Shown piece after piece: positions 35,984-50,995 of a DNA stretch of 64,000 nucleotides. A program made the position numbers and the translations under genes. The stretch spans positions 1 to 64,000 of the forward strand of contig NZ_BDJC01000008.1 of assembly GCF_002005565.1 (NCBI RefSeq), read 5' to 3'. A model generated the notes under the pieces. It saw only the letters and a program-made list of their open reading frames with translations, searched no databases and was not told the origin of the DNA. Every line of letters begins with the position of its first letter. The stretch's first letter is position 1. The DNA is from Streptomyces sp. JHA26 (lineage in GTDB: Bacteria; Actinomycetota; Actinomycetes; Streptomycetales; Streptomycetaceae).

Positions 35984-36333
35984 CCGTACGTCCCGCCTCT
36001 CGTCGTCGAGCTCGCGCGCCGCCAGCACCATACTCATGAGTAGGTCGAGGGGGATCCGGCGGGTGCCGGACTGTTTCGGGAATGTTTCCGGCCTATTGGC
36101 GAACGCGCGGATCACGCCATCCGGCCAGATCGCATGATCGAGAACCGCCCAGTTCCGGACTTGGAACGTTCTAATTCCGTAACTTCCCGCCACTGATTCA
36201 ATACGCAAGGTTACCGAAACCGGCGGGGTCGATGTGTCTTTCGGCGGCGGACTCGGCAGACTCGCGCTCGCCGCCCCGGCACCCACCGGGCCGGGCCGGC
36301 ACCACCCTCGAACCGAGCGGAAGGATGCACACA
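35984..36333. other. 350-bp intergenic region between divergent genes
   Basis: No gene seen. The stretch 36060-36230 is clearly less GC-rich than its surroundings, as expected for promoters of both the hydroxy-acid oxidase (minus) and the protease inhibitor (plus). It holds the palindromes given at 36031 and 36152-36167. Open frames crossing it have no start signals. Confidence 0.6.
36031..36042 (-). promoter_or_regulatory. palindromic operator upstream of the 2-hydroxy-acid oxidase
   Basis: TACTCATGAGTA is a perfect 12-bp palindrome 48 bp before the ATG at 35983. Farther upstream GTTCC (36152-36156) and GGAAC (36163-36167) form a second inverted repeat. Confidence 0.4.
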
Positions 36334-36768
36334 ATGCGGAACACCGCGCGCTGGGCAGCGACTCTGGGCCTGACGGTCACCGCCGTCTGCGGGCCCCTCG
36401 CCGGGACCTCCCTCGCCTCCCCGGCCACCGCCCCCGCGTCGCTCTACGCCCCCTCGGCCCTGGTGCTGACCGTGGGGCACGGAGAGAGCGCTGCCACCGC
36501 CGCGCCGCTGCGCGCCGTCACCCTGACCTGCGCACCGAGCCCCTCCGGCACCCACCCGGCCGCCGCCTCGGCCTGCGCCGAACTGCGCGGCGCCGGCGGC
36601 GACCTCGACGCCCTGACGGGCGACACCGATGTGCTGTGCACCCGGGAGTACGCCCCGGTCGTCGTCACCGTCGACGGGGTATGGCAGGGCCGGCGCGTCT
36701 CCTACGAGCGCGCCTTCGCCAACGAGTGCGCGAAGAACGCGGTCAGCACGAGCGTCTTCGCGTTCTGA
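36334..36768 (+). CDS. subtilisin inhibitor (SSI family) precursor
   Basis: 144 aa. A Sec signal ([20 protein letters not shown] to about SLASPATA) is followed by a mature domain of about 110 residues. It matches Streptomyces [21 protein letters not shown], four Cys for two disulphides, and the near-invariant [20 protein letters not shown] to SVFAF. The reactive-site loop reads [11 protein letters not shown], putting Arg at P1 and Glu at P1', where classic SSI has Met-Val; Arg at P1 predicts inhibition of trypsin-like as well as subtilisin-like proteases. Start at 36334 (GGAAGGA 8 bases upstream); ATG 36325 is a weaker option. Secreted dimer. Confidence 0.93.
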
Positions 36769-36924: not shown

Positions 36925-37155
36925 TCAGTCCTCGCCCGCCGGGCCGTCGCCCCGCCCGGACGACCGGGCGCGGTGACTGGTGTCGCACCAGGGGTAGCGC
37001 CGGCTGCGGCGACAGGTGCACAGGGCGACCCGGAAGCGGTCGGAGGACACCGTCGTGCCGTCCTCCAGCTCGACCTCCACCGGCCCCTCCACCAGGATCG
37101 GCCCCCGGCGCCGGACGGTGATCCTACGGGGCGTGTCAGACGGGGAGTTCGGCAC
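36925..37155 (-). CDS. CDGSH-type iron-sulfur protein
   Basis: 76 aa, GTG start. The cluster-binding motif is CTCRRSRRYPWCDTSH (about residues 47-62): three Cys and one His in the CxCx(n)PxCDxxH pattern of CDGSH/mitoNEET proteins, which hold a labile 2Fe-2S cluster. ITVRRRGPILVEGPVEVELEDG precedes it as the usual beta segment. Its start overlaps the end of the methyltransferase gene by 20 bp, with GAGGAGGAGC upstream, so translation is coupled. It may pass electrons or a cluster to the iron enzyme encoded first in the same operon. Confidence 0.85.
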   Translation of the reverse strand: MPNSPSDTPRRITVRRRGPILVEGPVEVELEDGTTVSSDRFRVALCTCRRSRRYPWCDTSHRARSSGRGDGPAGED

Positions 37156-37789
37156 GGACGACCACCAGCTCCTCCTCGTCGTCGGCCAGGGACAGCAGGC
37201 CCCGCTGCCGCAGCCAGCGTTCCCGGCCACGCACCACGGGTCCGAAGGCGATCCGCTGCCGCCGGGTCACCGCGGCCTTCAGACCGGCCTCCCGCAGACA
37301 TCCGACGGTCCGCCCGGGATCGCTCAGCGCGGACTGCACGAGCAGCAGCACACCACCGGGCCGCAGCAGGGCGGGAGCCTCCCGGCAGATCCGGTCCAGC
37401 ACCAGCCGGCCGTCGTGACCCGCGTCCCAGGCCCGGGCCGCACCGCGCGGCCGCCGGCCGCCGCCCGGCGCCGGGACGTACGGCGGATTGGCCAGGACGA
37501 GGTCGAACGTCTCGCCCCGCACCGGGGTGAAGAGGTTGCCGCGCAGAACGCGGACGCGCACACCGGCCCGCGACGCGTTCAGCCGGGCGGCCCACACGGC
37601 ACGCCGGGACACGTCCACGGCGGTGACCCGGCCGCCCCGCCGGGCGGCGGCCAGGGCCAGGGCGCCCGTACCCGTTCCCACGTCCAGGACGGCCGCACCC
37701 GGGGGCAGCGACTCGTCGGACAGGGCCCCGATCAGCAGGGCGGTGTCCTCCTGAGGGGCGTAGACGCCCGGTAGCACCATGAAATTCAC
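37136..37789 (-). CDS. HemK2/MTQ2-type protein methyltransferase
   Basis: 217 aa. VLDVGTGTGALALAAARRGGR is the SAM motif, and FDLVLANPPYVPAP is the NPPY catalytic motif of N5-glutamine methyltransferases and related N-methyltransferases. It lacks the N-terminal helical domain of release-factor methyltransferase PrmC, so it resembles the shorter HemK2/MTQ2 type. The GTG at 37789 overlaps the stop of the upstream gene as GTGA. Its target here is unknown; an inviting one is a Gln or Lys of a neighbour or of a ribosome-linked protein (inference). Confidence 0.85.
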   Translation of the reverse strand: MNFMVLPGVYAPQEDTALLIGALSDESLPPGAAVLDVGTGTGALALAAARRGGRVTAVDVSRRAVWAARLNASRAGVRVRVLRGNLFTPVRGETFDLVLANPPYVPAPGGGRRPRGAARAWDAGHDGRLVLDRICREAPALLRPGGVLLLVQSALSDPGRTVGCLREAGLKAAVTRRQRIAFGPVVRGRERWLRQRGLLSLADDEEELVVVRAELPV

Positions 37790-38841
37790 GGAACCCGCGT
37801 ACCCCGGCGCTCATGAAATATGGGGCCTCCGGAGGACTCGCGGGACACGCCCGCCAGGGGAGTGCGCAGGGAGGAGCGGCCGGCGCGCCAGTCGGCGAGC
37901 AGCCGGTCGCCGAAGCGGTCCTCCAGGAACCCGGTGGCGTCGATGCCGAAGACGATGTCCGCCGCGAGCTGCGGTTCCTGCTCCAGCAGACCGTCGATCA
38001 CCTCGTGCCGGACGATCTGCTCGTGCACCGCGTCGGCCTCGACGTGCTCGTCGTAGAAGTGCTCGGCGGCGGGCCCGGCACCGGTACGGCGCATCGCCTC
38101 GGCGAGCCGCCGGGAACCGGGCGACGAGGTGATCTCGACCGCCGCGAAGTGACCGACCAGGGCGCCGCGCAACGCCCGGTGCAGGCCGAACAGGGACATC
38201 ATGTTCACCGTGGCCAGGCACTCGGCCGAGGCCGCGTCGAGATGACGCCCGTACGCCGTGTCCAGCCCCAGGTCCGTCATCAGGTCGGCGAACAGCCGGG
38301 CGTGCACCCGCTCGGCGCGGCCGCCGCCGTACTCGTCGAACTCCACCGCCGCCATCGCCGCCTTCGCGCGGCCCCACAGCCGCGGCAGCACCCACGCGTG
38401 CGGGTCGGCCTCCTTGAGGTGGTACAGGGAGCGCTGGGCCGCGTACTCCCGCAGGTGCCACAACTCGCCCTCGTCCCGCAGGAAGTGGCTCACGCCCTTG
38501 CCGTCGACCGGCTCGACCAGCAGCGCCCCGACCGCGTCCGCCACGCTGTCGTGGACCGGCGTGTCGGCGCGCAGCGCGGACAGGAAGCGGTCCTCCAGCG
38601 CCGCCCGGACGCGCAGCAGGCCGGGGTCCCACTCCAGGTCGGGGGAGACGCCGGCGAAACCGCGGTAGTGCAGCTCGTAGCACTGGTACAGGGCCAACTG
38701 CAGGTCGTCGCCGTACGGTGACGCGGCGGCGACGTCCTCGAGGCGGGGCAGCGGGCCCGTGCCGAGCAGGTACGAGCCGACGGCCGCGGAGAGCGGGCCC
38801 CGGGCCGTCGGCGGCTGTGGTTCTTCGCGGACGTTCTCCAT
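37786..38841 (-). CDS. haem-oxygenase-like iron-containing redox enzyme (possible diiron oxidase)
   Basis: 351 aa, all helical. The central part has the acidic and His residues expected of haem-oxygenase-like diiron oxidases: VEFDEYGGGRAERVHARLF (about 185-205) and HFYDEHVEADAVHEQIVRHE (about 265-285). ELWHLREYAAQRSLYHLKEADPH lies before them. This is the iron-containing redox enzyme family (Haem_oxygenas_2-like), whose known members perform N-oxygenation or oxidative C-C cleavage. First gene of a three-gene coupled operon with a methyltransferase and a CDGSH protein. Substrate unknown. Confidence 0.8.
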   Translation of the reverse strand: MENVREEPQPPTARGPLSAAVGSYLLGTGPLPRLEDVAAASPYGDDLQLALYQCYELHYRGFAGVSPDLEWDPGLLRVRAALEDRFLSALRADTPVHDSVADAVGALLVEPVDGKGVSHFLRDEGELWHLREYAAQRSLYHLKEADPHAWVLPRLWGRAKAAMAAVEFDEYGGGRAERVHARLFADLMTDLGLDTAYGRHLDAASAECLATVNMMSLFGLHRALRGALVGHFAAVEITSSPGSRRLAEAMRRTGAGPAAEHFYDEHVEADAVHEQIVRHEVIDGLLEQEPQLAADIVFGIDATGFLEDRFGDRLLADWRAGRSSLRTPLAGVSRESSGGPIFHERRGTRVP

Positions 38842-40246: not shown

Positions 40247-43069
40247 TCAGGCCAGCTGCCGCCGCACCAGCTCGTGCAGCCGGCCGCCCGTGTCCGCCAG
40301 CAGCTCCGCCGGCGGGCCCTGCTGGGCGATCCTGCCGTCCTCCATCACGATCACGCGGTCGGCGTCCATCACCGTGGTCAGCCGGTGCGCGATGACGATG
40401 CGGGTGGCGTTCAGCGCCTTGGTCGATTCGATCACCGTGCGCTGCGTCTCGTTGTCCAGGGCGCTGGTCGCCTCGTCGAAGAAGAGCACGCGCGGCCGGC
40501 GGATCAGCGCCTGCGCGATCATCAACCGCTGCCGCTGGCCCCCGGAGACCGCACCGCTGCCCGACACGATGGTGTGCAGGCCCATCGGCATCCGCTTGAT
40601 GTCCTCGGCCAGCCCCGCCATCTCCGCCGCCGCCATCACCTCCTCCGGCGTGTACGGCTCGGTACCGCAGATGACGTCCATGATCGAGCCGGTGAACGGC
40701 TGCGCGTGCTGGAGCACCACCCCGCACTGCCGGCGCACGGCGGACGGATCGAGCGCGGCCAGGTCCTGGCCGTCGTACAGGACGCTGCCCGACAGCGGAC
40801 GGTCGAAGCCGATCAGCAGCCTCAGCAGGGTCGACTTGCCGCAGCCGCTGGGCCCGACGACCGCCACGAACTCGCCCGGCCGCACCGCGAACGACACGTC
40901 GTCCAGCACCAGCGGCCCGTCGTCGGTGTACCGGAACGACAGCCGCCGCGCCTCGACCGCCCCCGACAGCGGCCCCGGCCGGGTGCTCGCCGTGCGCACC
41001 TCGGGCGCCGCCTCCAGCACCGGCTTGATCTCCTCGAACAGCGGCAGCGCCGCCACCGCCGACACGAAGGCACCGGTCAGCTGGGTGACCGAGGTCAGCA
41101 GCATCGTCACCGACGTGCTGAAGGTGAGGAACGCCGCCGCCGACATCGAACCGCGCGCCGGGCCGGCCAGCAGCATGAACATCAGCAGCGTGCACAGCGG
41201 CAGGTACACCGCGCCGAGCACCGCGTTGAGGTTCTTGACGCGTCCGGCCCGCTGCTGGAGCTCACGGCTGCGCGCGAACTGCGCCGCCCAGGCCGCGTAG
41301 GCGTAGTTCTCGGCCGCCGCGACCCGCAGCTTGGGCAGGCCGCGCAGGGTCTGGAAGGCCTGGTTGTTCAGCTTGTTCGTGAGCCGCACCAGCCGCCGCT
41401 GCCAGCGCACCTGCCACAGCCCGAGCCCCAGGAACACCGCGGCGACGACCACCAGCATGCCGATCGCCGCGAGCGCCATCGGCACGCTGTACCAGAGCAG
41501 CAGCCCCAGGTTCATCGCGCCGACGGTCACCGACTGGGCCACCGTCGGCCCGACCCCGGCCAGCAGCCGGCGGATCGCGCTGATCCCCATGGCCGCGCTC
41601 GCCAGCTCACCCGTGGAGCGCTCGGTGAAGAACCGGGTCGGCAGCCGCAGCAGCCGGTCCCACACGGCCGGCTGGAGGGTCGCCTCGATACGGCCCTCCA
41701 GCCGCAGGATCGTCAGGTTCTGCAACAGCGTGAACGCCGCCGCGACGACACTGCTCAGCATCACCGCCAGACACACCTGCACGATCAGCCCGGTCTGCGC
41801 CTTCGGCACGAACTCGCCGAGCACCTTGCCGGTCGCGAGGGGCACCAGCGCGCCGATCGCCACCGTCACCAGCCCGGAGAGCAGCAGACTCGCCAGATCA
41901 CCGCGCGTGCCCCGCAGACAGAACCGCAGCAGCCGCAGCGGACCGAGCCGGCGCTCGGGCAGCGGCCGGTAGAACATCACCGCGCGCGGCTCGAACTCCT
42001 CGGCGTTGGCCTTCTCGACCGGCGTCTCCCGGCCGGTCGCCGGATGCACGGCCACATAGCCGCCACGCCGCCACAGCAGCGCCACCGGCGCGCCCGACAG
42101 GGCCCGGTGCCCGACCAGCGGCCCGACGTCGTCCCGCCACCAGCGGCCGTCCAGCCGCACGGCCCGGGTGCGGACCCGGGAGGCCAGGGCGATCCGCTCC
42201 ACCGGGTCGAGCCGGTCGCTCTCGGTGCCGTTCTGCGCGGGCTCGGCCAGCGTGATGCCGGCCGCACGGGCGACCAGCTCGCAGGCCGCGTGGGTGGCGT
42301 CGGCGTCGGCGGCCGTGACGCGCCGGCCCGACCGCCCGCCGATGGAGGCCAGCAGCGTCCGGTCGGCCTGGGCGCGGACCGCCTCACCGGCCTTGATGCC
42401 GGCCGCCGTGCGCGTCTCGTGGGTGCGCTCCAGCTCCTCGATCCAGCGGTCCAGCGTGGTCAGCAGCCGGTACTGCTGGTCGACCATGCTCTGCCACAGC
42501 GCGGGGTCCATCAGCAGGTCGGCGGCCGCCTCCTCGCCGTACACCGCGCCGTACTGCACGCTGCCGGGCGGCACCTGCATCCAGAACACGTCGTCGTCGG
42601 TGGGTGCCGCCACCCGCTCGGAGGCCATCGGCGCCTGGAAGAGGATGGACAGACTGCGCCCGACGCCCAGGGCGAGGGCGTACTCCAGCGGACTCGTCGT
42701 CGGCGGCACGTACCGGGGGTTGCCGTACTCGTCGTACGACCAGGTCTGCGTGGCCGCCGGCTGGTACAGCTCGCGCAGCCCGATGCGGTGCACCACGCAG
42801 TCCCGCAGGGGACGGGCGACCAGCGTGTGCTGCGGGCCGGCCACCGGACCGAGCAGCACCGAGCCCGCCTCCAGACGGCCCAGGTGGTGCCAGTGGCCCT
42901 GCTGGCCCGCGTCCACCGCGAACAGGTCCACCGCGCCGGACACGACCAGCCAGAGCACCTGCGGGCCCTCCAGGTCGAGGCGGGTGAACCCGGAGCAGTC
43001 GACGCGTGTGCCCAGGGAGCCGAGCGCGCCGAGGACCAGATCGCCCTGCCCTTCGTGCACCGTCGTCAT
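40247..43069 (-). CDS. NHLM-type peptide export ABC transporter (permease-ATPase, no peptidase)
   Basis: 940 aa. The N-terminal quarter is a cyclic-nucleotide-binding-like and helical domain unique to the NHLM bacteriocin-type ATPase. It is followed by five or six membrane helices (about 385-670) and a nucleotide-binding domain with GPSGCGKST (about 740), VSGGQRQRL (about 840) and RVLFFDEATSALD (about 860). There is no C39 peptidase. These proteins accompany a C39-containing partner in NHLP-type RiPP export loci. It begins one base after the stop of the C39 transporter gene, so the two are one unit, probably a heterodimer (inference). Confidence 0.9.
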   Translation of the reverse strand: MTTVHEGQGDLVLGALGSLGTRVDCSGFTRLDLEGPQVLWLVVSGAVDLFAVDAGQQGHWHHLGRLEAGSVLLGPVAGPQHTLVARPLRDCVVHRIGLRELYQPAATQTWSYDEYGNPRYVPPTTSPLEYALALGVGRSLSILFQAPMASERVAAPTDDDVFWMQVPPGSVQYGAVYGEEAAADLLMDPALWQSMVDQQYRLLTTLDRWIEELERTHETRTAAGIKAGEAVRAQADRTLLASIGGRSGRRVTAADADATHAACELVARAAGITLAEPAQNGTESDRLDPVERIALASRVRTRAVRLDGRWWRDDVGPLVGHRALSGAPVALLWRRGGYVAVHPATGRETPVEKANAEEFEPRAVMFYRPLPERRLGPLRLLRFCLRGTRGDLASLLLSGLVTVAIGALVPLATGKVLGEFVPKAQTGLIVQVCLAVMLSSVVAAAFTLLQNLTILRLEGRIEATLQPAVWDRLLRLPTRFFTERSTGELASAAMGISAIRRLLAGVGPTVAQSVTVGAMNLGLLLWYSVPMALAAIGMLVVVAAVFLGLGLWQVRWQRRLVRLTNKLNNQAFQTLRGLPKLRVAAAENYAYAAWAAQFARSRELQQRAGRVKNLNAVLGAVYLPLCTLLMFMLLAGPARGSMSAAAFLTFSTSVTMLLTSVTQLTGAFVSAVAALPLFEEIKPVLEAAPEVRTASTRPGPLSGAVEARRLSFRYTDDGPLVLDDVSFAVRPGEFVAVVGPSGCGKSTLLRLLIGFDRPLSGSVLYDGQDLAALDPSAVRRQCGVVLQHAQPFTGSIMDVICGTEPYTPEEVMAAAEMAGLAEDIKRMPMGLHTIVSGSGAVSGGQRQRLMIAQALIRRPRVLFFDEATSALDNETQRTVIESTKALNATRIVIAHRLTTVMDADRVIVMEDGRIAQQGPPAELLADTGGRLHELVRRQLA

Positions 43070-43070
43070 C

Positions 43071-45293
43071 TCACCGCTCCCCGACCAGCGCCGCGTACGC
43101 GCCGCCGCGCGCCACCAGTTCCTCGTGCCGCCCGCGCTCCACGACCGTGCCGTGCTCCAGGACGACGATCTCGTCGCTGTCCCGCACGGTGCTCAGCCGG
43201 TGCGCGATCACCACGCACGCGCAGCCGCGCCGGCGCAGGTTGTCCATCACCACCAGCTCGGTCTCCGCGTCCAGCGCGCTGGTCACCTCGTCCAGGACCA
43301 GGATGCTGGGCCTGCGCACCAGCGCCCGCGCGATCTCCAGCCGCTGGCGCTGACCGCCGGAGAAGTTCCGGCCGTCCTGCTCGACCCGGCTGTGGATGCC
43401 GCCCGGCCGGCGCATCACCACGTCGTACAGCGCGGCGTCCCTGAGCGCCTCCACCACGGCGTCGTCGGGGACCGACGGGTCCCACAGCGCCACGTTGTCG
43501 CGCACCGAGCCCTCGAAGAGGAACACGTCCTGGTCGACGAAGGAGACGGAGGACGCCAGCGCCCCGCGCGGAATGTCCTCCAGCCGCTGCCCGTCGATCC
43601 GGATCACGCCCTCCCACGGGGTGTACAGGCCGGAGATCAGCCGGGACACCGTGGACTTGCCGCTGCCCGAACCGCCGACGAGGGCCACCTGCCGCCCCGG
43701 ACCGACCGTCAGGTCGAAGCCGGTCAGCAACGGCTTGTCGAGGGGGCTGTAGCCGAACGAGATGTTCTCCAGCTCGACGTGGCCGTGCAGCCGGCGCGTG
43801 GAGTCGCCGCCGCCGGGACGGCCGTACAGCGGGTCGGTCCGGAAGTTCTCCACGTCCTTCAGCCGGGCCACGTCGGCCGCGAAGTCCTGGATGCGGCCCG
43901 CGACACCGTTCAGCCGGGTCAGCGGCGCCGTGAAACGGGTGACCAGCGCCTGGAAGGCGACCAGCAGACCGACCGAGATGTGCCCCTCGACCGCCCGCAT
44001 GCCGCCGATCCACAGGATCAGCGCGCTGTTGAGCGTGGCGAGCGTCGGCGCGACCACACCCAGCCAGGCGCTCGGCACCCCGAGCCGCTGCTGCTCCTCC
44101 AGCGTGGTGGCGTGCTGCCCGGCCCACTTGCGGAAGTAGCCGTCCTCACCGCCGGTCGCCTTCATCGTCTCGATCAGCTGAAGACCCGTGTACGCGGTGT
44201 TGGTCAGCCGGGCGGTGTCCGCGCGCAGCTTGGCCGTCCGCGTCGCGCGCAGTTTGATCACGACCCGCATCGCGACGACGTTCAGCAGCGCCACGCCGAT
44301 GCCGACGAACGTCAGCTGGGGGTCGTAGGTGTACAGCAGCACGGCGTACAGCACGACGACGATCGCGTCGACGCCCGCCGCGGCGAGGTCGCGGGCCAGG
44401 GTCTCGGCGACGGCGTCGTTGGACTGCAGGCGCTGCACCAGGTCGGCCGGGCTGCGCTGCGAGAAGAACGTCACCGGCAGCCGCAGCAGGTGCCGCAGGA
44501 AGCGGGCGCTGGAGAGGGTGGAGGAGATGATGCGGCCGTGCAGCAGGTTCGCCTGCTGCAGCCAGGTCAGCACCACCGTGAGCAGCACGCACGCCGCCAT
44601 CGACGTGAACAGCACGCCCAGCAGCGAGGTCTGCCCGCCGATCAGGAACATGTCGATGTAGGTGCGGCTCAGCGCGGGCACCGCCGCGCCCACCACGACC
44701 AGCAGCAGGCTCGCCAGCACGGCGGCGGGCAGCGTGCCCGCGGTGCCGCGCAGCCGGGCCGGCATCGCACCGAGCACGCCCGGCCTGCGGCCGCCCCGGA
44801 CGAAGTCCTCGCCGGGCTCCATGGTCAGCACGACCCCGGTGAAGCTGCCGTCGAAGTCCTCCAGGGACACGAAACGGCGGCCCTTGCCCGGGTCGTTGAT
44901 GAACACCCCGCGTCGGCCGAAGCGCCGGCCCATGCCGTCGTAGACGACGTAGTGGTTGAACTCCCAGAACAGGATGGCCGGCGCCGTCACCTCGGCGAGG
45001 GCGGCCAGGTCCATCTGCATGCCCTTGGCGGTGAAACCGTAACTGCGCGCCGCCTTCAGCAGGTTGCTCGCCCGGGATCCGTCGCGGGAGACACCGCAGG
45101 CGATGCGCAGCTCCTCCAGCGGGACGTGCCGGCCGTAGTGGCCGAGCACCATCGCGAGGGAGGCGGCGCCGCACTCGACGGCCTCCATCTGGAGCACGGT
45201 GGGCGTACGGACGGTCTTCGCCCGGCCCTTGGGCACCGTGCGCCGGGGCGGCGCGGCGCGGCGTCTGCCCCGGGTGTCGGTCGCGGTACTCAC
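43071..45293 (-). CDS. C39 peptidase / permease / ATPase of NHLP-type peptide export
   Basis: 740 aa, GTG start. Residues about 30-150 form a C39 peptidase with Cys41 (AVECGAASLAMVLGHYGRH), His114 (FNHYVVYDG) and Asp134 (FINDPGKG), all present. Membrane helices span about 160-430. The ATPase has VGGSGSGKST, FSGGQRQRLEIARAL and ILVLDEVTSALD. C39 domains cut after a double glycine, which fits the VSGG site of the peptide at 46198-46413. The GTG overlaps the adaptor gene stop as GTGA. It should cleave the leader and export the core peptide. Confidence 0.93.
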   Translation of the reverse strand: MSTATDTRGRRRAAPPRRTVPKGRAKTVRTPTVLQMEAVECGAASLAMVLGHYGRHVPLEELRIACGVSRDGSRASNLLKAARSYGFTAKGMQMDLAALAEVTAPAILFWEFNHYVVYDGMGRRFGRRGVFINDPGKGRRFVSLEDFDGSFTGVVLTMEPGEDFVRGGRRPGVLGAMPARLRGTAGTLPAAVLASLLLVVVGAAVPALSRTYIDMFLIGGQTSLLGVLFTSMAACVLLTVVLTWLQQANLLHGRIISSTLSSARFLRHLLRLPVTFFSQRSPADLVQRLQSNDAVAETLARDLAAAGVDAIVVVLYAVLLYTYDPQLTFVGIGVALLNVVAMRVVIKLRATRTAKLRADTARLTNTAYTGLQLIETMKATGGEDGYFRKWAGQHATTLEEQQRLGVPSAWLGVVAPTLATLNSALILWIGGMRAVEGHISVGLLVAFQALVTRFTAPLTRLNGVAGRIQDFAADVARLKDVENFRTDPLYGRPGGGDSTRRLHGHVELENISFGYSPLDKPLLTGFDLTVGPGRQVALVGGSGSGKSTVSRLISGLYTPWEGVIRIDGQRLEDIPRGALASSVSFVDQDVFLFEGSVRDNVALWDPSVPDDAVVEALRDAALYDVVMRRPGGIHSRVEQDGRNFSGGQRQRLEIARALVRRPSILVLDEVTSALDAETELVVMDNLRRRGCACVVIAHRLSTVRDSDEIVVLEHGTVVERGRHEELVARGGAYAALVGER

Positions 45294-46096
45294 GGCAGCA
45301 GCCAATCGACGGGACGCTGCCCGGCCAGCCGGATGGAGCCCGTGGCCAGCGTCATGGAGGTCAGTTCGTACGGCGGTCCGTCCGCGGACGACCACGCGTA
45401 ACCGCTCTTCGTGGACGTCGAGGTGTCGAGGCGCACCGTCACGGCGACCGGCCTGCCGTCCTTCGTGAACTGCTCGCCGAGCCCGCCGTCCCCGAGGAAC
45501 GCGCCGATCGACCGCGCCGACTGGGCCGAGCGGTCCACCGACGCCACGTGGCCGCGCAGCACGCCGTACTCCTGGGCCGGCACCGACTGGACGGTCAGGT
45601 CGACCGGGGCGTCGGCCGGGATGGCGGCGGCGTTCTCGGCGGGGACGTAGACGGTGGCGTAGAGCGGGTCGCCGGCGTGGGCGACCTTCTCGATCGACGC
45701 GACGTCCGCGCCGGTCCGGATGATCTGGCCGACGGCGGCGGCGAGCGCGCTGACGCGGCCCGCGTCGAGCGAGCGGACGACGGTGTCGCCCTCGGCGGTG
45801 CGGACCTTCAGCACCGGCGAACCGGCGGCCAGCCGTTCGCCCTGCCGGGCGAGGACGGCGGTGACCTGACCGGAGACCGGGCTCTGCAGGACGTAACTGC
45901 CCTGCCCGTGGGTGAGGACGGCGGGTGCGCCGACCGTGGAGGCCACCGAGCCGGTCACCGCCCACACGGACGCGGCGGCCATCGCGACGACGGTCACGGA
46001 CAGCACCAGCCAGCCCTGCGGGCGGGCGAAGCGCACCGGAAGGTCGAGCTCCTCCGGTGACTGGAGTTTGGCGAGGGCCTGTTGGCGGAACTGCAC
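45290..46096 (-). CDS. HlyD-family adaptor of the peptide exporter
   Basis: 268 aa, GTG start. One membrane helix (WLVLSVTVVAMAAASVWAVTG, about 28-48) is followed by a lipoyl/barrel-sandwich half (SYVLQSPVSGQVTAVLARQGERL) and a beta-barrel part (PLYATVYVPAENAAAIPADAPV). The long coiled-coil hairpin of Gram-negative adaptors is missing, as usual in actinobacterial NHLP loci. It likely links the transporter to the cell-wall side. It is separated from the precursor gene by a strong hairpin and overlaps the C39 transporter by four bases. Confidence 0.85.
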   Translation of the reverse strand: MQFRQQALAKLQSPEELDLPVRFARPQGWLVLSVTVVAMAAASVWAVTGSVASTVGAPAVLTHGQGSYVLQSPVSGQVTAVLARQGERLAAGSPVLKVRTAEGDTVVRSLDAGRVSALAAAVGQIIRTGADVASIEKVAHAGDPLYATVYVPAENAAAIPADAPVDLTVQSVPAQEYGVLRGHVASVDRSAQSARSIGAFLGDGGLGEQFTKDGRPVAVTVRLDTSTSTKSGYAWSSADGPPYELTSMTLATGSIRLAGQRPVDWLLP

Positions 46097-46147
46097 GTCG
46101 GACGTATCCCAGGAGATCGCTGTGAAGCCGTCGGGGAACGGCCGAGA

Positions 46148-46178
46148 AGTCCCGGAGCCGGGGTACGGCTCCGGGACT
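46148..46178 (-). terminator. hairpin between the peptide gene and its export genes
   Basis: Perfect 12-bp stem AGTCCCGGAGCC / GGCTCCGGGACT with a 7-base loop, 20 bp after the precursor stop and 52 bp before the adaptor start. As a partial terminator or processing site it would keep precursor mRNA more abundant than exporter mRNA. Confidence 0.65.
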
Positions 46179-46197
46179 CAGCGGCACGAGGGCGCGA

Positions 46198-46413
46198 TCA
46201 GAGACCGGCGACCAGGTTGGTGACCGGAGCCGTGTTCAGGCCCGTGACACCCTCGACGGTGCCGACGACGGTGTTGAGCAGGCCCGAGACCGGGGCGATG
46301 CCGTCCACCAGGCCGGTGACGGTGCCGACGGCGTTCACGTTCAGGCCGCCGGAGACGTTGTCGAGCTCGGCGTCGGAGATCTCGACGGTCTCGACCTGGG
46401 GGGTGGAGTTCAT
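46198..46413 (-). CDS. double-glycine precursor peptide of the NHLP-type export system
   Basis: 71 aa. The leader (residues 1-23) ends ISDAELDNVSGG, a classic C39 cleavage signal. The predicted 48-residue core starts LNVNAVGTVTGLVDGIAPVS. It has no Cys, Lys, Arg, His or aromatic residue; it is rich in Val, Gly, Thr, Leu and Asn and carries one Asp and one Glu. Two related stretches begin VGTV and include APV. Without Cys it cannot form lanthionine, so labels such as lantipeptide would mislead. GAAGGGA precedes the ATG. No LanM, LanB, radical-SAM or cyclodehydratase gene is adjacent. Confidence 0.85.
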   Translation of the reverse strand: MNSTPQVETVEISDAELDNVSGGLNVNAVGTVTGLVDGIAPVSGLLNTVVGTVEGVTGLNTAPVTNLVAGL

Positions 46414-46980
46414 GATGGAACTTCCCTTCGTATAGCCAATTCACAAGGGGGGAGCGGCCCCCTCTGGGGACAGATGACGGCCGCGACCACGGGCGGCCGG
46501 GCGTCCGTCTCCGGAGCCCTCCGCGGCCCCCGCGGTGCGATGGATCAAAGCACGCGGCCGGTCGGCCCTTCCAATCAATCACCGCTCTCACCTGGGCTCT
46601 TGCGACGCCGAGGCGCCCAACCGTGCAGGAGTGCGCACGTCTTCGCGGCGACTTCTTCACACCGGGGACGGCATCGGGCCGTGCGGCTCCCCGCCCGCGG
46701 CGCCGCGAATCCGGCACTCCCGCACCAAAGGCGTGCGCGCCCCCCGGCGATTGTGGAGAACGGCCAATCCGCGTGACCGGGTTGGGCAGCCGATGTGCAG
46801 ATTCGCTGAAGCCGGGATTCCGCTCCGCGAGTGGAACGGAGCGTGTCCGCCCGGACACGGAGCGTGCCGAGGTGACGCGATTGAACGGCCCGTACGGACC
46901 GTGCGTACCAACAGCCGTCCAGGCGCCCCCGAACTGCCGCCGTACGGCGGCACGAACCCCGTCCCAGGAGGTCGAGAAGC
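46414..46980. other. 567-bp intergenic region between peptide gene and protease
   Basis: No gene with a credible start was found. On the plus strand GTGTCCG/CGGACAC (46843-46858) and the perfect palindrome GCCGCCGTACGGCGGC (46936-46951) lie in the leader of the protease mRNA. The second one ends 15 bp before its AGGAGG. The peptide promoter must lie in the first part, but no consensus hexamers stand out. Confidence 0.55.
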
Positions 46981-48336
46981 TTGAGTCACAAGCGAATCCC
47001 GAAGCGCAGGGCCGCGATGGCGGCGGGCGCGGTGGTGGCGCTCGGCGCGGCCGCCGTCCTGCTGCCGAACGCCAACGCCTCCCAGGACGGCGGTGATCCG
47101 GGCGCCACCGCCGCGCCGAGGACACTCAAGGCGGCGGAGGCCCCGGACCTCGCCTCACAGCTCTCCGGACTGCTCGGCGACGCCTTCGCCGGCTCCTACT
47201 ACGACGCCGGCAGGCAGCAGCTCGTCGTCAACGTCGTGGCCGGCGACGACAACGACGTCGTCGTGCGGGCAAAGGAGGCGGGCGCGGCCGTCCGCGAGGT
47301 GGACAACAGCATCGCCGAACTGAGGGCCGGCGCACGGACCCTGAAGACCGAGGCGACCATTCCCGGCACCTCGTGGGCCGTCGACCCCCGGACCAACAAG
47401 ATCCTCGTCACCGCCGACAGCACCGTCACCGGCGCCGCGTGGGACCGGCTGGAGTCCACCGTCGACAGGCTCGGGCCCGGCATGGCCACCCTCAGGAAGT
47501 CGGCCGGAACCTTCACACCCTTCGTGTCCGGCGGGGACGCCGTCTTCGGCGGCGGTGCCCGCTGCTCGCTCGGCTTCAACGTCACCGCGGCGGACGGCTC
47601 GCCCGCCTTCCTGACGGCCGGTCACTGCGGCGTCGCCGCCGCGCAGTGGTCCGACGCGCAGGGCGGGCAGCCGATCGCCACCGTCGACCAGGCCGTCTTC
47701 CCCGGCCAGGGCGACTTCGCGCTCGTCACCTACGACGACCCCGCGACCGAGGCGCCGAGCGAGGTGAACGTCGGCGGCCGGACCGTCGCGATCAGCGGCG
47801 CGGCGGAGGCGACGGTCGGACAGCAGGTCTTCCGGATGGGCAGCACCACCGGACTGGCCGACGGACAGGTCCTCGGCCTGGACGCCACCGTGAACTACCC
47901 CGAGGGCACCGTCACCGGCCTCATCCAGACCGACGTGTGCGCCGAACCCGGGGACAGCGGAGGCTCCCTGTTCACCCGGGACGGCCTCGCGATCGGCCTC
48001 ACGTCCGGCGGCAGCGGCGACTGCACGGTGGGCGGCGAGACGTTCTTCCAGCCGGTCACCACGGCCCTGCAGGCGGTCGGCGCGACGCTCGGCGACGGCG
48101 GCGCGGGCGACCAGGCGGGCGGAGGGGACTCCGGCGCGGGCGACCGGGCCGGTGGCGCGGGGACCGGTGCCGGCGACCAGGCCGGTGGCGCGGAGGCCGG
48201 TGTCGGCGACCAGGCCGGTGGCGCGGAGGCCGGTGACGCCACGGGGGACGCCGACGACGGGACAGGGGCCGGGCAGGCCGGCGACGGGACGGGCGCCGGC
48301 AGCCCGGACGGCTCCGGACCGACCCGGACCCACTGA
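46981..48336 (+). CDS. secreted S1-family (alpha-lytic/streptogrisin-like) serine protease
   Basis: 451 aa, TTG start, fixed by AGGAGG 9 bases upstream. Signal peptide: KRIPKRRAAMAAGAVVALGA to about NANA. A propeptide follows (about 35-185), then the chymotrypsin-fold catalytic domain with His in LTAGHCGVA (about 215), Asp in GQGDFALVTY (about 244) and Ser in [11 protein letters not shown] (about 326). The last 85 residues are a Gly/Ala/Asp-rich tail with four 11-residue repeats (GDQAGGAEAG type), perhaps a wall-spanning spacer. It is divergent from the peptide-export locus. A paralogue with a membrane helix instead of this tail is at 60400-61761. Confidence 0.9.
   Translation: MSHKRIPKRRAAMAAGAVVALGAAAVLLPNANASQDGGDPGATAAPRTLKAAEAPDLASQLSGLLGDAFAGSYYDAGRQQLVVNVVAGDDNDVVVRAKEAGAAVREVDNSIAELRAGARTLKTEATIPGTSWAVDPRTNKILVTADSTVTGAAWDRLESTVDRLGPGMATLRKSAGTFTPFVSGGDAVFGGGARCSLGFNVTAADGSPAFLTAGHCGVAAAQWSDAQGGQPIATVDQAVFPGQGDFALVTYDDPATEAPSEVNVGGRTVAISGAAEATVGQQVFRMGSTTGLADGQVLGLDATVNYPEGTVTGLIQTDVCAEPGDSGGSLFTRDGLAIGLTSGGSGDCTVGGETFFQPVTTALQAVGATLGDGGAGDQAGGGDSGAGDRAGGAGTGAGDQAGGAEAGVGDQAGGAEAGDATGDADDGTGAGQAGDGTGAGSPDGSGPTRTH
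48106..48237 (+). repeat. four tandem 33-bp repeats in the protease tail
   Basis: Four in-frame copies of an 11-codon unit, GDQAGGGDSGA, GDRAGGAGTGA, GDQAGGAEAGV and GDQAGGAEAGD, with the last two nearly identical in DNA. Copy number may vary between strains. Confidence 0.8.
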
Positions 48337-48381
48337 CTCCCGCCACCCGCTCCGATCCTCCCTCCCACCCGCCCCGTACGG

Positions 48382-48433
48382 GTCCGCGGCCCGGTCCGGC
48401 CCTCCCGCCGGAGGGCCGGACCGGGCCGCGGAC
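48382..48433 (+). terminator. very strong terminator after the protease gene
   Basis: Perfect 24-bp stem (48382-48405 with 48410-48433) around a CGCC loop, starting GTCCGCGGCCCGG. It lies 46 bp after the protease stop and isolates the downstream phosphatase gene. Confidence 0.8.
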
Positions 48434-48553
48434 CTCCTCATCCAGTACGGGAGGCGCACCGTCTCCTCGTCCGGACGAAGCCCCCGCGCCCGGATCGCAG
48501 GTTCCCCGCTCACAGGGGCTGCGCGGCCGTCCCATACGCGCTGTAATGGCGAC

Positions 48554-50995
48554 GTGGTCAGTGAGGGCACCGCGGAGAGCGGGACGAGAACGCTGCGTGC
48601 CGAGGATGCCCTGAAGGCGATCGCCGCCCTCCCGGACCGGAGGGAACGACTGCGCCGCGTCCTGGAACAGGCGCTCGTGTTCGGCGGAGCCGCCTTCGCC
48701 GCCGTGTACACACCCGGCGAGGACCGCGAGCTGCTCTGCCTCGCCGAGTCGGTGGGCGTGCCGAGGACGCTGTACGGCCTGCGCGACAGCTATCCCGCGG
48801 ACGGCGGCTCCCCGGTCGCCGACGCCCGCCGGGGCGGGGCGCCGGTGTGGCTCGGCCCCGAGGCGTTCGCCGAGTCCGCCGAATCGCGGCGCGTCCCCTC
48901 CAGCGGCTTCTCCCTCGCCGCCCTGCCCGTGCCGCGCGACGGCGGCTGTCTGCTCGCCCTGACCGAGTGCCCGGGGGGCTTCGGCCCCGAGGAGCGGGCC
49001 TGCCTGGAACTGGTCGCCGAGGCGACCGTCGGCCCCGCCCCGCCCGTGGCCACCGAGAGCCGGGAACTGCGGCCGGACGCGTTCTCCCTGGCCATGGACA
49101 CCGGCCGGGTCCGGGTCGGCGACGACATCCTCAGGCTGTTCGCCCTCACCCCGGACGACTTCGACGGCAGGGTCGAGACGCTGCTCGGCCTGACCGTGCC
49201 CGAGGACCTGCCCTCGCTGATGTCCGTGGTGGAGGCCGACCACATGTCCATCGGCGACCGGGAGCTGGAGTTCCGGGTGCTGCAGCCCACCGGCCCGCCG
49301 AAATGGCTGCGACTGCGCGGGCGCCTGCTGCCGGGTGGCGACGGACGGCCGGCCCGCCTCGTGGGCACCGTCGCCGACGCCTCCACCCTGCGCCCCGACG
49401 TGACCGACGTCGCCCGCGTCCAGCGCCTGGCCGCCGCCCTGGCCACCGCGGGCACCGTCCGCGACGTCAGCCAGGCCGTGGTCGCCGCCCTGCGCAGGCC
49501 GCTGCGCGCCGACCGGATCGCCCTGGCCGAGCTGGAGAACGACCGTCTCGTCGTCACCGTCCTCGACCCGCCCGAACCGGAGTCGTGGCCCGAGCTGTGG
49601 CGGCTGGAGTGGCGCACCGAGTGGCCCGACGCCCCCGTGCGCGCCATGCCCACCCTCGCCGCGGCGCTGCGCGAGGGGCGCGCCCAGATCTGGCCGGCCG
49701 GCACCGCACTGGAACCGGCGCTCGCCGACGTCGGGCCCGGCGGCCTGGCCGTCCTGCCGCTGCCGGCCGCGGGCCGCACGGCCGGCGTCTGCCTGATCGG
49801 CTGGGACTCCCCGCACGACTTCGGCCCCGACGAGCGCGCCCTGCTCACCGCCTCCGCCGGCCTCGCCGGGCAGGCCCTGATGCGCGCCCACGCCTTCGAC
49901 GCCGAGCACGAACTCGTCGGCATGCTCCAGCGCCAGCTGCTCCCGCGCCGGCTGCCGAAACTGCCCGGCGCGGTCGCCGCCGCCCGCTACCTGCCCAGCA
50001 CGGCCGGACTGGAGCTCGGCGGCGACTGGTACGACGTGATCCCGCTGCCCGACCACCACGTCGCCCTCGTCATCGGCGACGTCCAGGGCCACAGCGCCGG
50101 CGCCGCCACCCTCATGGGCCAGATGCGCACCGCCCTGCGCGCCTACGCCGTCGAGGGACACCCGCCCGACGTGGTCGTCTCCCGGGCCAACCGCCTCCTG
50201 GCGGACATGGGCACCGACCTCTTCGCCACCTGCGTCTACGTCGACCTCGACATGGAGGAGGGCTCCGCCTGGTGCGTCCGCGCGGGGCACCCGCCGCCGG
50301 TGCTGCGCCACCCCGACGGCACCACGGAGATCGCGGAGGCGGAGGGCGGTCCGCCGCTCGGCGTGGTGGCGCAGGCCGACTTCCCGATGAGCCCGCTCCG
50401 GCTGCGCCCCGGCACCCTGATCGCCCTCACCACGGACGGGCTCGTGGAGTCCGCCGACGCCGACATCGACGAGGGCATGGACCGCTTCGCGCACGCGCTG
50501 GCCGTGTCCGACCCCGCCCACCTCGGTCTCGTCGCCGACGCCCTGCTCGGCAACGCCCGCCGCAGCGACGACGTCGCCCTGCTGCTGGTGCGCTACGACG
50601 GCATGCGGACGCGTCCGCTGCGCGAGACCTGGACGGTGTGGCGGCTGCCCGAGGCCGTCCGGCACGCCCGCCGCTTCACCCACCGCACCCTGCGCTCGTG
50701 GGGCGTGCCGCCGGCCGACGTCGACGCCGTGCTCCTCGTCGTCTCCGAGCTGGTCACCAACGCCCTGGTGCACACCGAGGGCACGGTCCGCCTCGACCTC
50801 ACCCTGGTGGGCGGCCGGCTGCGCGTCGCGGTCGCCGACGCGTCACCGCGCACGCCCGCCAAACCGACCAGCATCGGCTGGGAGGCCACGGGCGGGCGCG
50901 GCATCCTGCTGGTCGAGGCGGTGTCGACCACGTGGGGGACGCTGCCGGTCAGCGGGGGCAAGCAGGTGTGGAGCGAGATCGCGCTGGGCCGGTGA
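48554..50995 (+). CDS. GAF-PAS-GAF-SpoIIE phosphatase with anti-sigma-type kinase domain
   Basis: 813 aa, GTG start. N-terminal GAF-like domain (about 15-160), PAS domain (about 165-270; PKWLRLRGRLLPGGDGRPARLVG), second GAF (about 285-440), SpoIIE/PP2C phosphatase (about 465-670; GGDWYDVIPLPDHHVALVIGD, then GHSAGAATLMGQMR) and HATPase (about 690-810; VVSELVTNALVHTEGTVRLD). It likely controls phosphorylation of a STAS antagonist in response to a signal bound by PAS or GAF. TGTAAT (48542-48547) ends six bases before the GTG, with no ribosome binding site, so the mRNA is probably leaderless. Same architecture class as 23017-25395. Confidence 0.87.
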   Translation: MVSEGTAESGTRTLRAEDALKAIAALPDRRERLRRVLEQALVFGGAAFAAVYTPGEDRELLCLAESVGVPRTLYGLRDSYPADGGSPVADARRGGAPVWLGPEAFAESAESRRVPSSGFSLAALPVPRDGGCLLALTECPGGFGPEERACLELVAEATVGPAPPVATESRELRPDAFSLAMDTGRVRVGDDILRLFALTPDDFDGRVETLLGLTVPEDLPSLMSVVEADHMSIGDRELEFRVLQPTGPPKWLRLRGRLLPGGDGRPARLVGTVADASTLRPDVTDVARVQRLAAALATAGTVRDVSQAVVAALRRPLRADRIALAELENDRLVVTVLDPPEPESWPELWRLEWRTEWPDAPVRAMPTLAAALREGRAQIWPAGTALEPALADVGPGGLAVLPLPAAGRTAGVCLIGWDSPHDFGPDERALLTASAGLAGQALMRAHAFDAEHELVGMLQRQLLPRRLPKLPGAVAAARYLPSTAGLELGGDWYDVIPLPDHHVALVIGDVQGHSAGAATLMGQMRTALRAYAVEGHPPDVVVSRANRLLADMGTDLFATCVYVDLDMEEGSAWCVRAGHPPPVLRHPDGTTEIAEAEGGPPLGVVAQADFPMSPLRLRPGTLIALTTDGLVESADADIDEGMDRFAHALAVSDPAHLGLVADALLGNARRSDDVALLLVRYDGMRTRPLRETWTVWRLPEAVRHARRFTHRTLRSWGVPPADVDAVLLVVSELVTNALVHTEGTVRLDLTLVGGRLRVAVADASPRTPAKPTSIGWEATGGRGILLVEAVSTTWGTLPVSGGKQVWSEIALGR

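Follow-up and report, generated by a model that had tools for sequence, protein, structure and literature searches.

We analysed a window of 64,000 nucleotides from Streptomyces sp. JHA26 (NCBI RefSeq assembly GCF_002005565.1, contig NZ_BDJC01000008.1, positions 1 to 64,000), whose genome is a draft of 7.34 Mb in 169 contigs. The subject of this analysis is a four-gene block on the minus strand that encodes a small double-glycine peptide precursor and the proteins predicted to export it. Reading of the open reading frames in the window revealed a tightly packed arrangement in the order precursor, hlyD, C39-ABC gene and second ABC gene, with the following features:

46421..46429, minus strand: ribosome-binding-like site GAAGGGAAG, read by eye
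46198-46413, minus strand: precursor of 71 residues, Cys-free, with VSGG at residues 20-23 and a 48-residue core
46345..46413, minus strand: leader of 23 residues, MNSTPQVETVEISDAELDNVSGG; the leader model matches 218 of 295 Streptomyces genomes
46201..46344, minus strand: core of 48 residues without Cys, Lys, Arg or aromatic residues; net charge -2, grand average of hydropathy (GRAVY) +1.0
45290-46096, minus strand: hlyD-like adaptor of 268 residues, GTG start, PF13437; TIGR03794 at 144.1 bits (cut-off 156.2)
43071-45293, minus strand: C39 peptidase-ABC transporter of the NHLM ABC1 type, 740 residues; TIGR03796 at 1026.8 bits
40247-43069, minus strand: second ABC transporter without a peptidase domain, NHLM ABC2 type, 940 residues; TIGR03797 at 896.2 bits

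A GTGA overlap joined hlyD and the C39 gene, and a gap of 1 base lay between the C39 gene and the second ABC gene. The block was flanked by Ppx/GppA on one side and an alpha-lytic-type protease on the other, and no further gene was found within it among the open reading frames of the window. The 71-residue start of the precursor was supported by a GAAGGG ribosome-binding-like site that was seen by eye upstream of the precursors of most relatives. A preliminary description of this DNA had regarded the block as an NHLP/NHLM-type system dedicated to the secretion of one linear hydrophobic peptide. The four reading frames, VSGG site, overlap, 1-base gap and both flanking genes that it had reported were all recovered from the coordinates and translations, as were the residues Cys41, His114 and Asp134 of the C39 domain.

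The C39-ABC protein and the second ABC protein scored above the curated cut-offs of NHLM_micro_ABC1 (TIGR03796; 1026.8 versus 853.3 bits) and NHLM_micro_ABC2 (TIGR03797; 896.2 versus 709.4 bits), whereas the HlyD protein matched NHLM_micro_HlyD (TIGR03794) below its cut-off (144.1 versus 156.2 bits), and in the NCBIfam search the precursor matched neither TIGR03793 nor TIGR03798, the NHLP and Nif11 precursor models (E<=0.1). The NHLP/NHLM assignment held for both ABC proteins and not for the precursor. Over nearly its whole length, the C39-ABC protein could be aligned with C39 peptide exporters of known structure, namely 4ry2 with related entries and ComA (8hf7). When the precursor family was searched against the PDB, five matches were returned (E 0.14-0.51), none of which was convincing; the leader region had a weak match to a solved Nif11-domain protein (E 0.27). 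Judged by gene order and description rather than by sequence identity, the block matches the SCO0753-SCO0756 type locus of S. coelicolor.

The occurrence of the precursor was far beyond chance, as it was matched in 194 of 295 Streptomyces genomes (E<=0.001). The C39-ABC model matched 224 of the same genomes at E<=1e-150, 218 of them above the curated cut-off, and a single match of this type was present in 216 of the 224; three candidates per genome were scored, and match numbers could be low. We compared 60 other Streptomyces loci of about 12-20 kb each, picked to cover close and distant relatives. The order precursor-hlyD-ABC1-ABC2 was kept in 60/60 loci, and no modification enzyme was recognisable within the four-gene block. 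The precursors of three loci (L073, L074 and L087) were located through their leaders and one locus (L064) escaped the leader pattern, so that the linked precursors comprised the window and 59 of the 60 loci (n=60). The flanks were not conserved, with a protease neighbour in 29/60 loci and Ppx/GppA in 14/60. Within the near clade, the subtilisin-inhibitor (SSI) and protease neighbours were conserved and the flanks were stable, changing only beyond it.

A search with the precursor in 16 genomes gave additional weaker matches, mostly confined to the N-terminal part of the peptide, and in 20 such regions the same leader stood ahead of unrelated cores. A leader model of 33 rows, in which the residues D, LD and GG were invariant, yielded 340 matches in the 218 leader-positive genomes, 100 of which carried two to five; at most 29 candidates per genome were scored, and these numbers could also be low. 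When the leader model was set against the exporter in the 295 genomes, both were present in 217, the leader only in one, the exporter only in seven and neither in 70. The sole leader-only genome is 79% complete. In a class-wide genome draw, the leader was found in 22 of 28 Streptomyces and in none of the 268 genomes from 113 other genera. The C39-ABC proteins of the seven exporter-only genomes (G028, G038, G058, G100, G120, G188 and G287) scored lower (E 1e-284 to 1e-160) and are perhaps exporters of another precursor family.

Stand-alone precursors were examined in 80 loci (20 + 60), of which 69 contained a precursor and 11 contained none by the search pattern. The 69 loci held 61 precursors in 60 exporter-free loci and 10 precursors in nine loci with the exporter; the leader matches G148:C21 and G141:C2, and matches taken as linked, were left out of the stand-alone set. 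The stand-alone leaders showed a median identity of 70% to the window leader (n=61). Their cores resembled the window core no more than shuffled cores did (median z 0.7, 0/61 above 5); for the linked cores the median z was 15, with 54/59 above 5. The stand-alone cores sorted into ten unrelated groups, with sizes of 20, 20, 7, 5 and 4 and five singletons, and ranged from 28 to 56 residues, compared with 48-58 residues for the linked cores. Mean hydropathy was positive in 61/61 stand-alone cores, and net charge was between -1 and -4 in 57/61.

The neighbours of 20 stand-alone loci mostly differed, although one phosphatase-like family was found in 6/20 at varying positions and two neighbour families were common to three loci of one core type. 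Seven neighbour families were present in at least four stand-alone loci. Four of them lay within one core group, and the three that crossed groups resembled common regulators or phosphatases by eye. In L274 and four loci of the same core group, a common neighbour looked like an RNA polymerase sigma factor by eye, as judged from L274 alone among the five. Two further loci were noted: the core of the stand-alone precursor at L213:8470-8721 contained an HHG-repeat stretch and is possibly metal-binding, and L315:4044-4920, a locus with the exporter, contained a tandem pair of leader-bearing precursors about 640 bases apart.

Upstream of the linked precursors, we found GATTGG followed after 16-17 bases by GTGCTTTGATCC, a two-box element whose spacing looks promoter-like. 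This element and a hairpin downstream of the precursor are located in the window as follows:

46571..46576, minus strand: GATTGG box of the two-box promoter-like element, with an exact composite motif match at 46542-46576
46542..46553, minus strand: GTGCTTTGATCC box (12 bases), 17 bases after GATTGG
46147..46179, minus strand: stem-loop of 14 bp between the precursor and hlyD (z -3.6 for the 101-nt gap)

At no more than 400 bases upstream, the 12-base box was present with three or fewer mismatches in 59/60 linked precursors and was exact in 44. The exact composite motif gave 26 matches in 22 of 30 genomes, compared with 0 for the reversed control, and a leader-bearing precursor followed all 26 (22 linked and 4 stand-alone). 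Among the stand-alone precursors, 46/61 had the 12-base box with two or fewer mismatches. The box alone gave 36 matches in 34 genomes, and its reversed control gave 1; of the 30 matches examined, 25 preceded a leader precursor and five did not, one of the five being in an exporter-free genome. In 944 gene upstream regions, the box was found in 60 with up to three mismatches and was exact in 14, counts that include the precursors themselves and were not used as a rate. A text search of the literature with the motif string gave nothing relevant among the matches listed. The stem-loop is likely to be an attenuator or an RNA end, and its position in the gap between the precursor and hlyD is fitting because the S. 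coelicolor precursor was induced more strongly than the exporter genes. An Rfam search of 46000-47100 returned three matches, all below gathering scores. The host genome was also observed to carry one stand-alone precursor (L199:8408-8722, contig C1), in which the same leader precedes an unrelated core with two Cys and the 12-base box lies 113 bases upstream with one mismatch.

We consider it unlikely that the linked peptide is the sole substrate of the exporter and that the stand-alone leader genes are decaying duplicates or are exported otherwise. In favour of a dedicated exporter, the linked cores can be recognised as members of a single family, and only one leader match was found in 118 of the 218 leader-positive genomes (E<=0.001). 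However, the stand-alone leaders stay similar while their cores are wholly different, many stand-alone genes retain the two-box element, the leader is absent from the 70 exporter-free genomes bar the one incomplete genome, and the stand-alone frames that were read are open. Because the same leader is found on scattered genes whose cores are unrelated, while 216/224 genomes show a single C39-ABC match of this type, the word "dedicated" in the preliminary description is probably wrong; a linear hydrophobic peptide remains the simplest reading of the precursor.

All 60 linked cores lacked Cys, Lys, Trp and Tyr and had a positive mean hydropathy and a net charge of -1 to -4, with a mean GRAVY of about 1. 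In 26 near-clade precursors, the mean ratio of nonsynonymous to synonymous divergence (dN/dS), taken from pairwise estimates with small dS, was about 0.21 for the leader, about 0.65 for the core and 0.13 for the C39-ABC protein. Strong purifying selection on the core was considered and failed on this value. Conservation of the leader together with a fairly free core would be expected of an exporter that reads the leader and of a core that acts by its composition. In near-clade loci, synonymous sites had also diverged about half as much in the precursor as in the C39-ABC gene, which hints at high expression or a constrained RNA.

These properties bear on two other functions for the peptides. 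Killing of related strains by a classical, unmodified bacteriocin would be in keeping with the double-glycine leader, the C39-ABC exporter and the bacteriocin label that the locus carries in two S. coelicolor papers, as far as these were available; matches below cut-off were also obtained for the CTB family bacteriocin model (E 0.011), the TIGR01847 signal (14 versus 15.7 bits, E 0.06) and Bacteriocin_IIc (13.3 versus 27.1 bits, E 0.085). We regard this function as decidedly improbable, as every linked core is negatively charged and without Lys, the tight block has no immunity gene because it contains no further gene, and the cores, rather than varying between strains, can be recognised in two thirds of the genus. 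Pheromone-like signals sensed by the producer are quite unlikely as well. The peptides are small and predicted to be secreted, the leader gave a weak match to the pheromone VP1 model (E 0.025) that fell far short of the cut-off, and expression in S. coelicolor depends on a two-component system according to the available text of PMC6629963. Against this, the block contains no receptor or kinase and its flanks are not conserved, the core evolves fairly freely, and the stand-alone cores comprise ten groups unrelated to one another.

We found no LanC-like domain (PF05147, E<=1e-10, three candidates scored) in the draft host genome. Such a domain was absent from 14 of 48 exporter-positive genomes, the host included; for the 34 genomes with matches, the closest one on the exporter's own contig lay about 49 kb away (same-contig matches only). 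The lanthipeptide class is rejected as far as sequence searches reach, because the linked cores have no Cys and the host has no LanC-like domain, and the preliminary description had come to the same exclusion for the core. In many of the rows listed from public records, this Cys-free precursor family is nevertheless called "type A2 lantipeptide", and the name is also used in the available part of PMC13047742; for the same two reasons, it is likely a misannotation. The Pfam Type-A lantibiotic model matched the precursor below its cut-off (14 versus 21.7 bits).

Modification by an unlinked enzyme of the kind that acts on ribosomally synthesised and post-translationally modified peptides (RiPPs), for example by epimerising, methylating or oxidising residues other than Cys, appears rather improbable. 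The paper that defined the exporter cassette, PMC2887384, in the part available to us, ties it to thiazole/oxazole-modified microcin (TOMM) or LanM-type enzymes, and in the window a gene for a heme-oxygenase-like iron-containing redox protein overlaps a small-domain methyltransferase gene (37136-38841), 1.4-3.1 kb beyond the block. This pair occurred beside the block in only 12/60 other loci and was set aside as a source of modifiers. The absence of a LanC-like domain from the host also speaks against unlinked modification, as does the rarity of neighbours bearing CxxxCxxC (1/454 around linked loci and 2/392 around stand-alone ones), a crude test in which YcaO and other families were not searched.

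Taken together, the block without a recognisable modification enzyme, the shared leader, the shared two-box element and the co-occurrence of leader and exporter lead us to propose, with a probability of roughly two in three, that the cells use one exporter for a family of linear, hydrophobic and mostly acidic peptides that is defined by its leader and partly co-regulated. From these sequence features, we infer cleavage, export and a surface function of the peptides. A common regulator or sigma factor would act on the two-box element and switch the precursors on, and transcription from the linked precursor would be partly stopped at the hairpin and otherwise run on into the exporter genes. The C39 domain would recognise D, LD and GG in the leader and cut after Gly-Gly regardless of the core. 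Together with the second ABC protein and the HlyD adaptor, the C39-ABC protein would remove the leader and secrete both the linked and the scattered peptides, and the unmodified cores may then act outside the cell, on the surface of the hyphae or within the matrix. Such action is fitting because SCO0753 is the most induced gene of an S. coelicolor mutant with dispersed growth, the cause of which was not shown there. At even odds, we would extend this proposal to a genus-specific export regulon, in which one C39-ABC protein and scattered precursors with a constant promoter element, a constant leader and exchanged cores provide each species with its own hyphal mix of unmodified hydrophobic peptides.

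Several observations weigh against a single exporter serving such a co-regulated family. The exact composite motif was missing from 8/30 genomes, the 12-base box was absent at up to two mismatches in 15/61 stand-alone precursors, and only 36/61 had both boxes in a relaxed form. A single leader match is all that 118 of the 218 leader-positive genomes have, and the co-occurrence counts, including the 217 genomes with both leader and exporter, ignore shared ancestry among species. The rather free evolution of the linked core fits a compositional role without proving one. Additionally, an unlinked enzyme with no need of Cys may modify the cores, and the case for unmodified peptides is weaker for the stand-alone cores because 10/61 contain Cys (one with two or more).

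If the proposal is true, a single machine conditions the exterior of the filament with a changeable set of peptides in a major antibiotic-producing genus. A locus filed in many Streptomyces records as "bacteriocin" or "type A2 lantipeptide" could then be tested as a system that secretes linear peptides of the surface or matrix, and the leader and the promoter-like element would allow candidate substrates to be listed. It could also connect a defined set of secreted peptides with Sco5282/Sco5283, a known morphology switch of S. coelicolor.

Two other genes near the block were observed in the window. The SSI gene is located at 36232-36768 and was near the block in 24/60 other loci, too. On the opposite strand, past the protease gene, 48152-50995 encodes a large SpoIIE phosphatase that also contains PAS, GAF and kinase-like ATPase domains.

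The closest known system is SCO0753-SCO0756, where a Cys-free hydrophobic peptide, an HlyD protein and two ABC proteins are encoded in the same order beside an exopolyphosphatase (SCO0753-0757). According to the available text of PMC6629963 (Arroyo-Perez 2019), SCO0753 was the most induced gene (log2 6.3) with the kinase Sco5282 activated relative to the null strain, in which the genes of the locus were almost silent, and the exporter genes were up by 4.25-4.4 (log2). The mutant with this induction grows dispersed, and expression of the ECF sigma factor SCO0864 is raised in it as well. The same text, which also mentions SapB, describes SCO0753 as hydrophobic and without cysteines, notes the conserved gene order, considers export by the HlyD/ABC neighbours likely and suggests a change of the hyphal surface by the peptide. 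The four-gene cassette is thus not new, and the main inference of the preliminary description is already in print. The parts available of other papers list the locus tags merely as bacteriocin or efflux, and PMC11043171, to the extent available, concerns another two-component system. What differs here from the account available in PMC6629963 is the genome-wide leader family, the two-box element and the genus-wide co-occurrence counts; in the open-access literature searched, neither the recurrence of the leader on dispersed genes nor the two-box element was found in print.

The block shares its three exporter proteins and its double-glycine leader with the NHLP/Nif11 cassette (TIGR03794/03796/03797), as described in the available part of PMC2887384. 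It differs in that the precursor matches no NHLP/Nif11 model and the block has no modification enzyme. Cyanobacterial C39/HlyD bacteriocin groups also combine a C39-ABC protein, a peptidase-free ABC protein and HlyD with double-glycine precursors (PMC3140520, as available). They belong to another phylum and have other leaders, whereas the Streptomyces precursors are encoded by single genes scattered through the genome, many of which share a promoter-like element. Among the prochlorosins, one LanM serves up to 29 precursors. The likeness to the present family lies in one machine and a conserved leader with very different cores (PMC3951391, as available). The prochlorosins share a lanthionine synthase, whereas the machine shared here would be the exporter only. 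Comparison may finally be made with SapB and the chaplins, which are secreted hydrophobic Streptomyces peptides with surface roles. SapB is a lanthipeptide, the chaplins use a Sec signal, and to our knowledge neither uses this leader. The peptides described here resemble them as hydrophobic Streptomyces peptides for which secretion is predicted.

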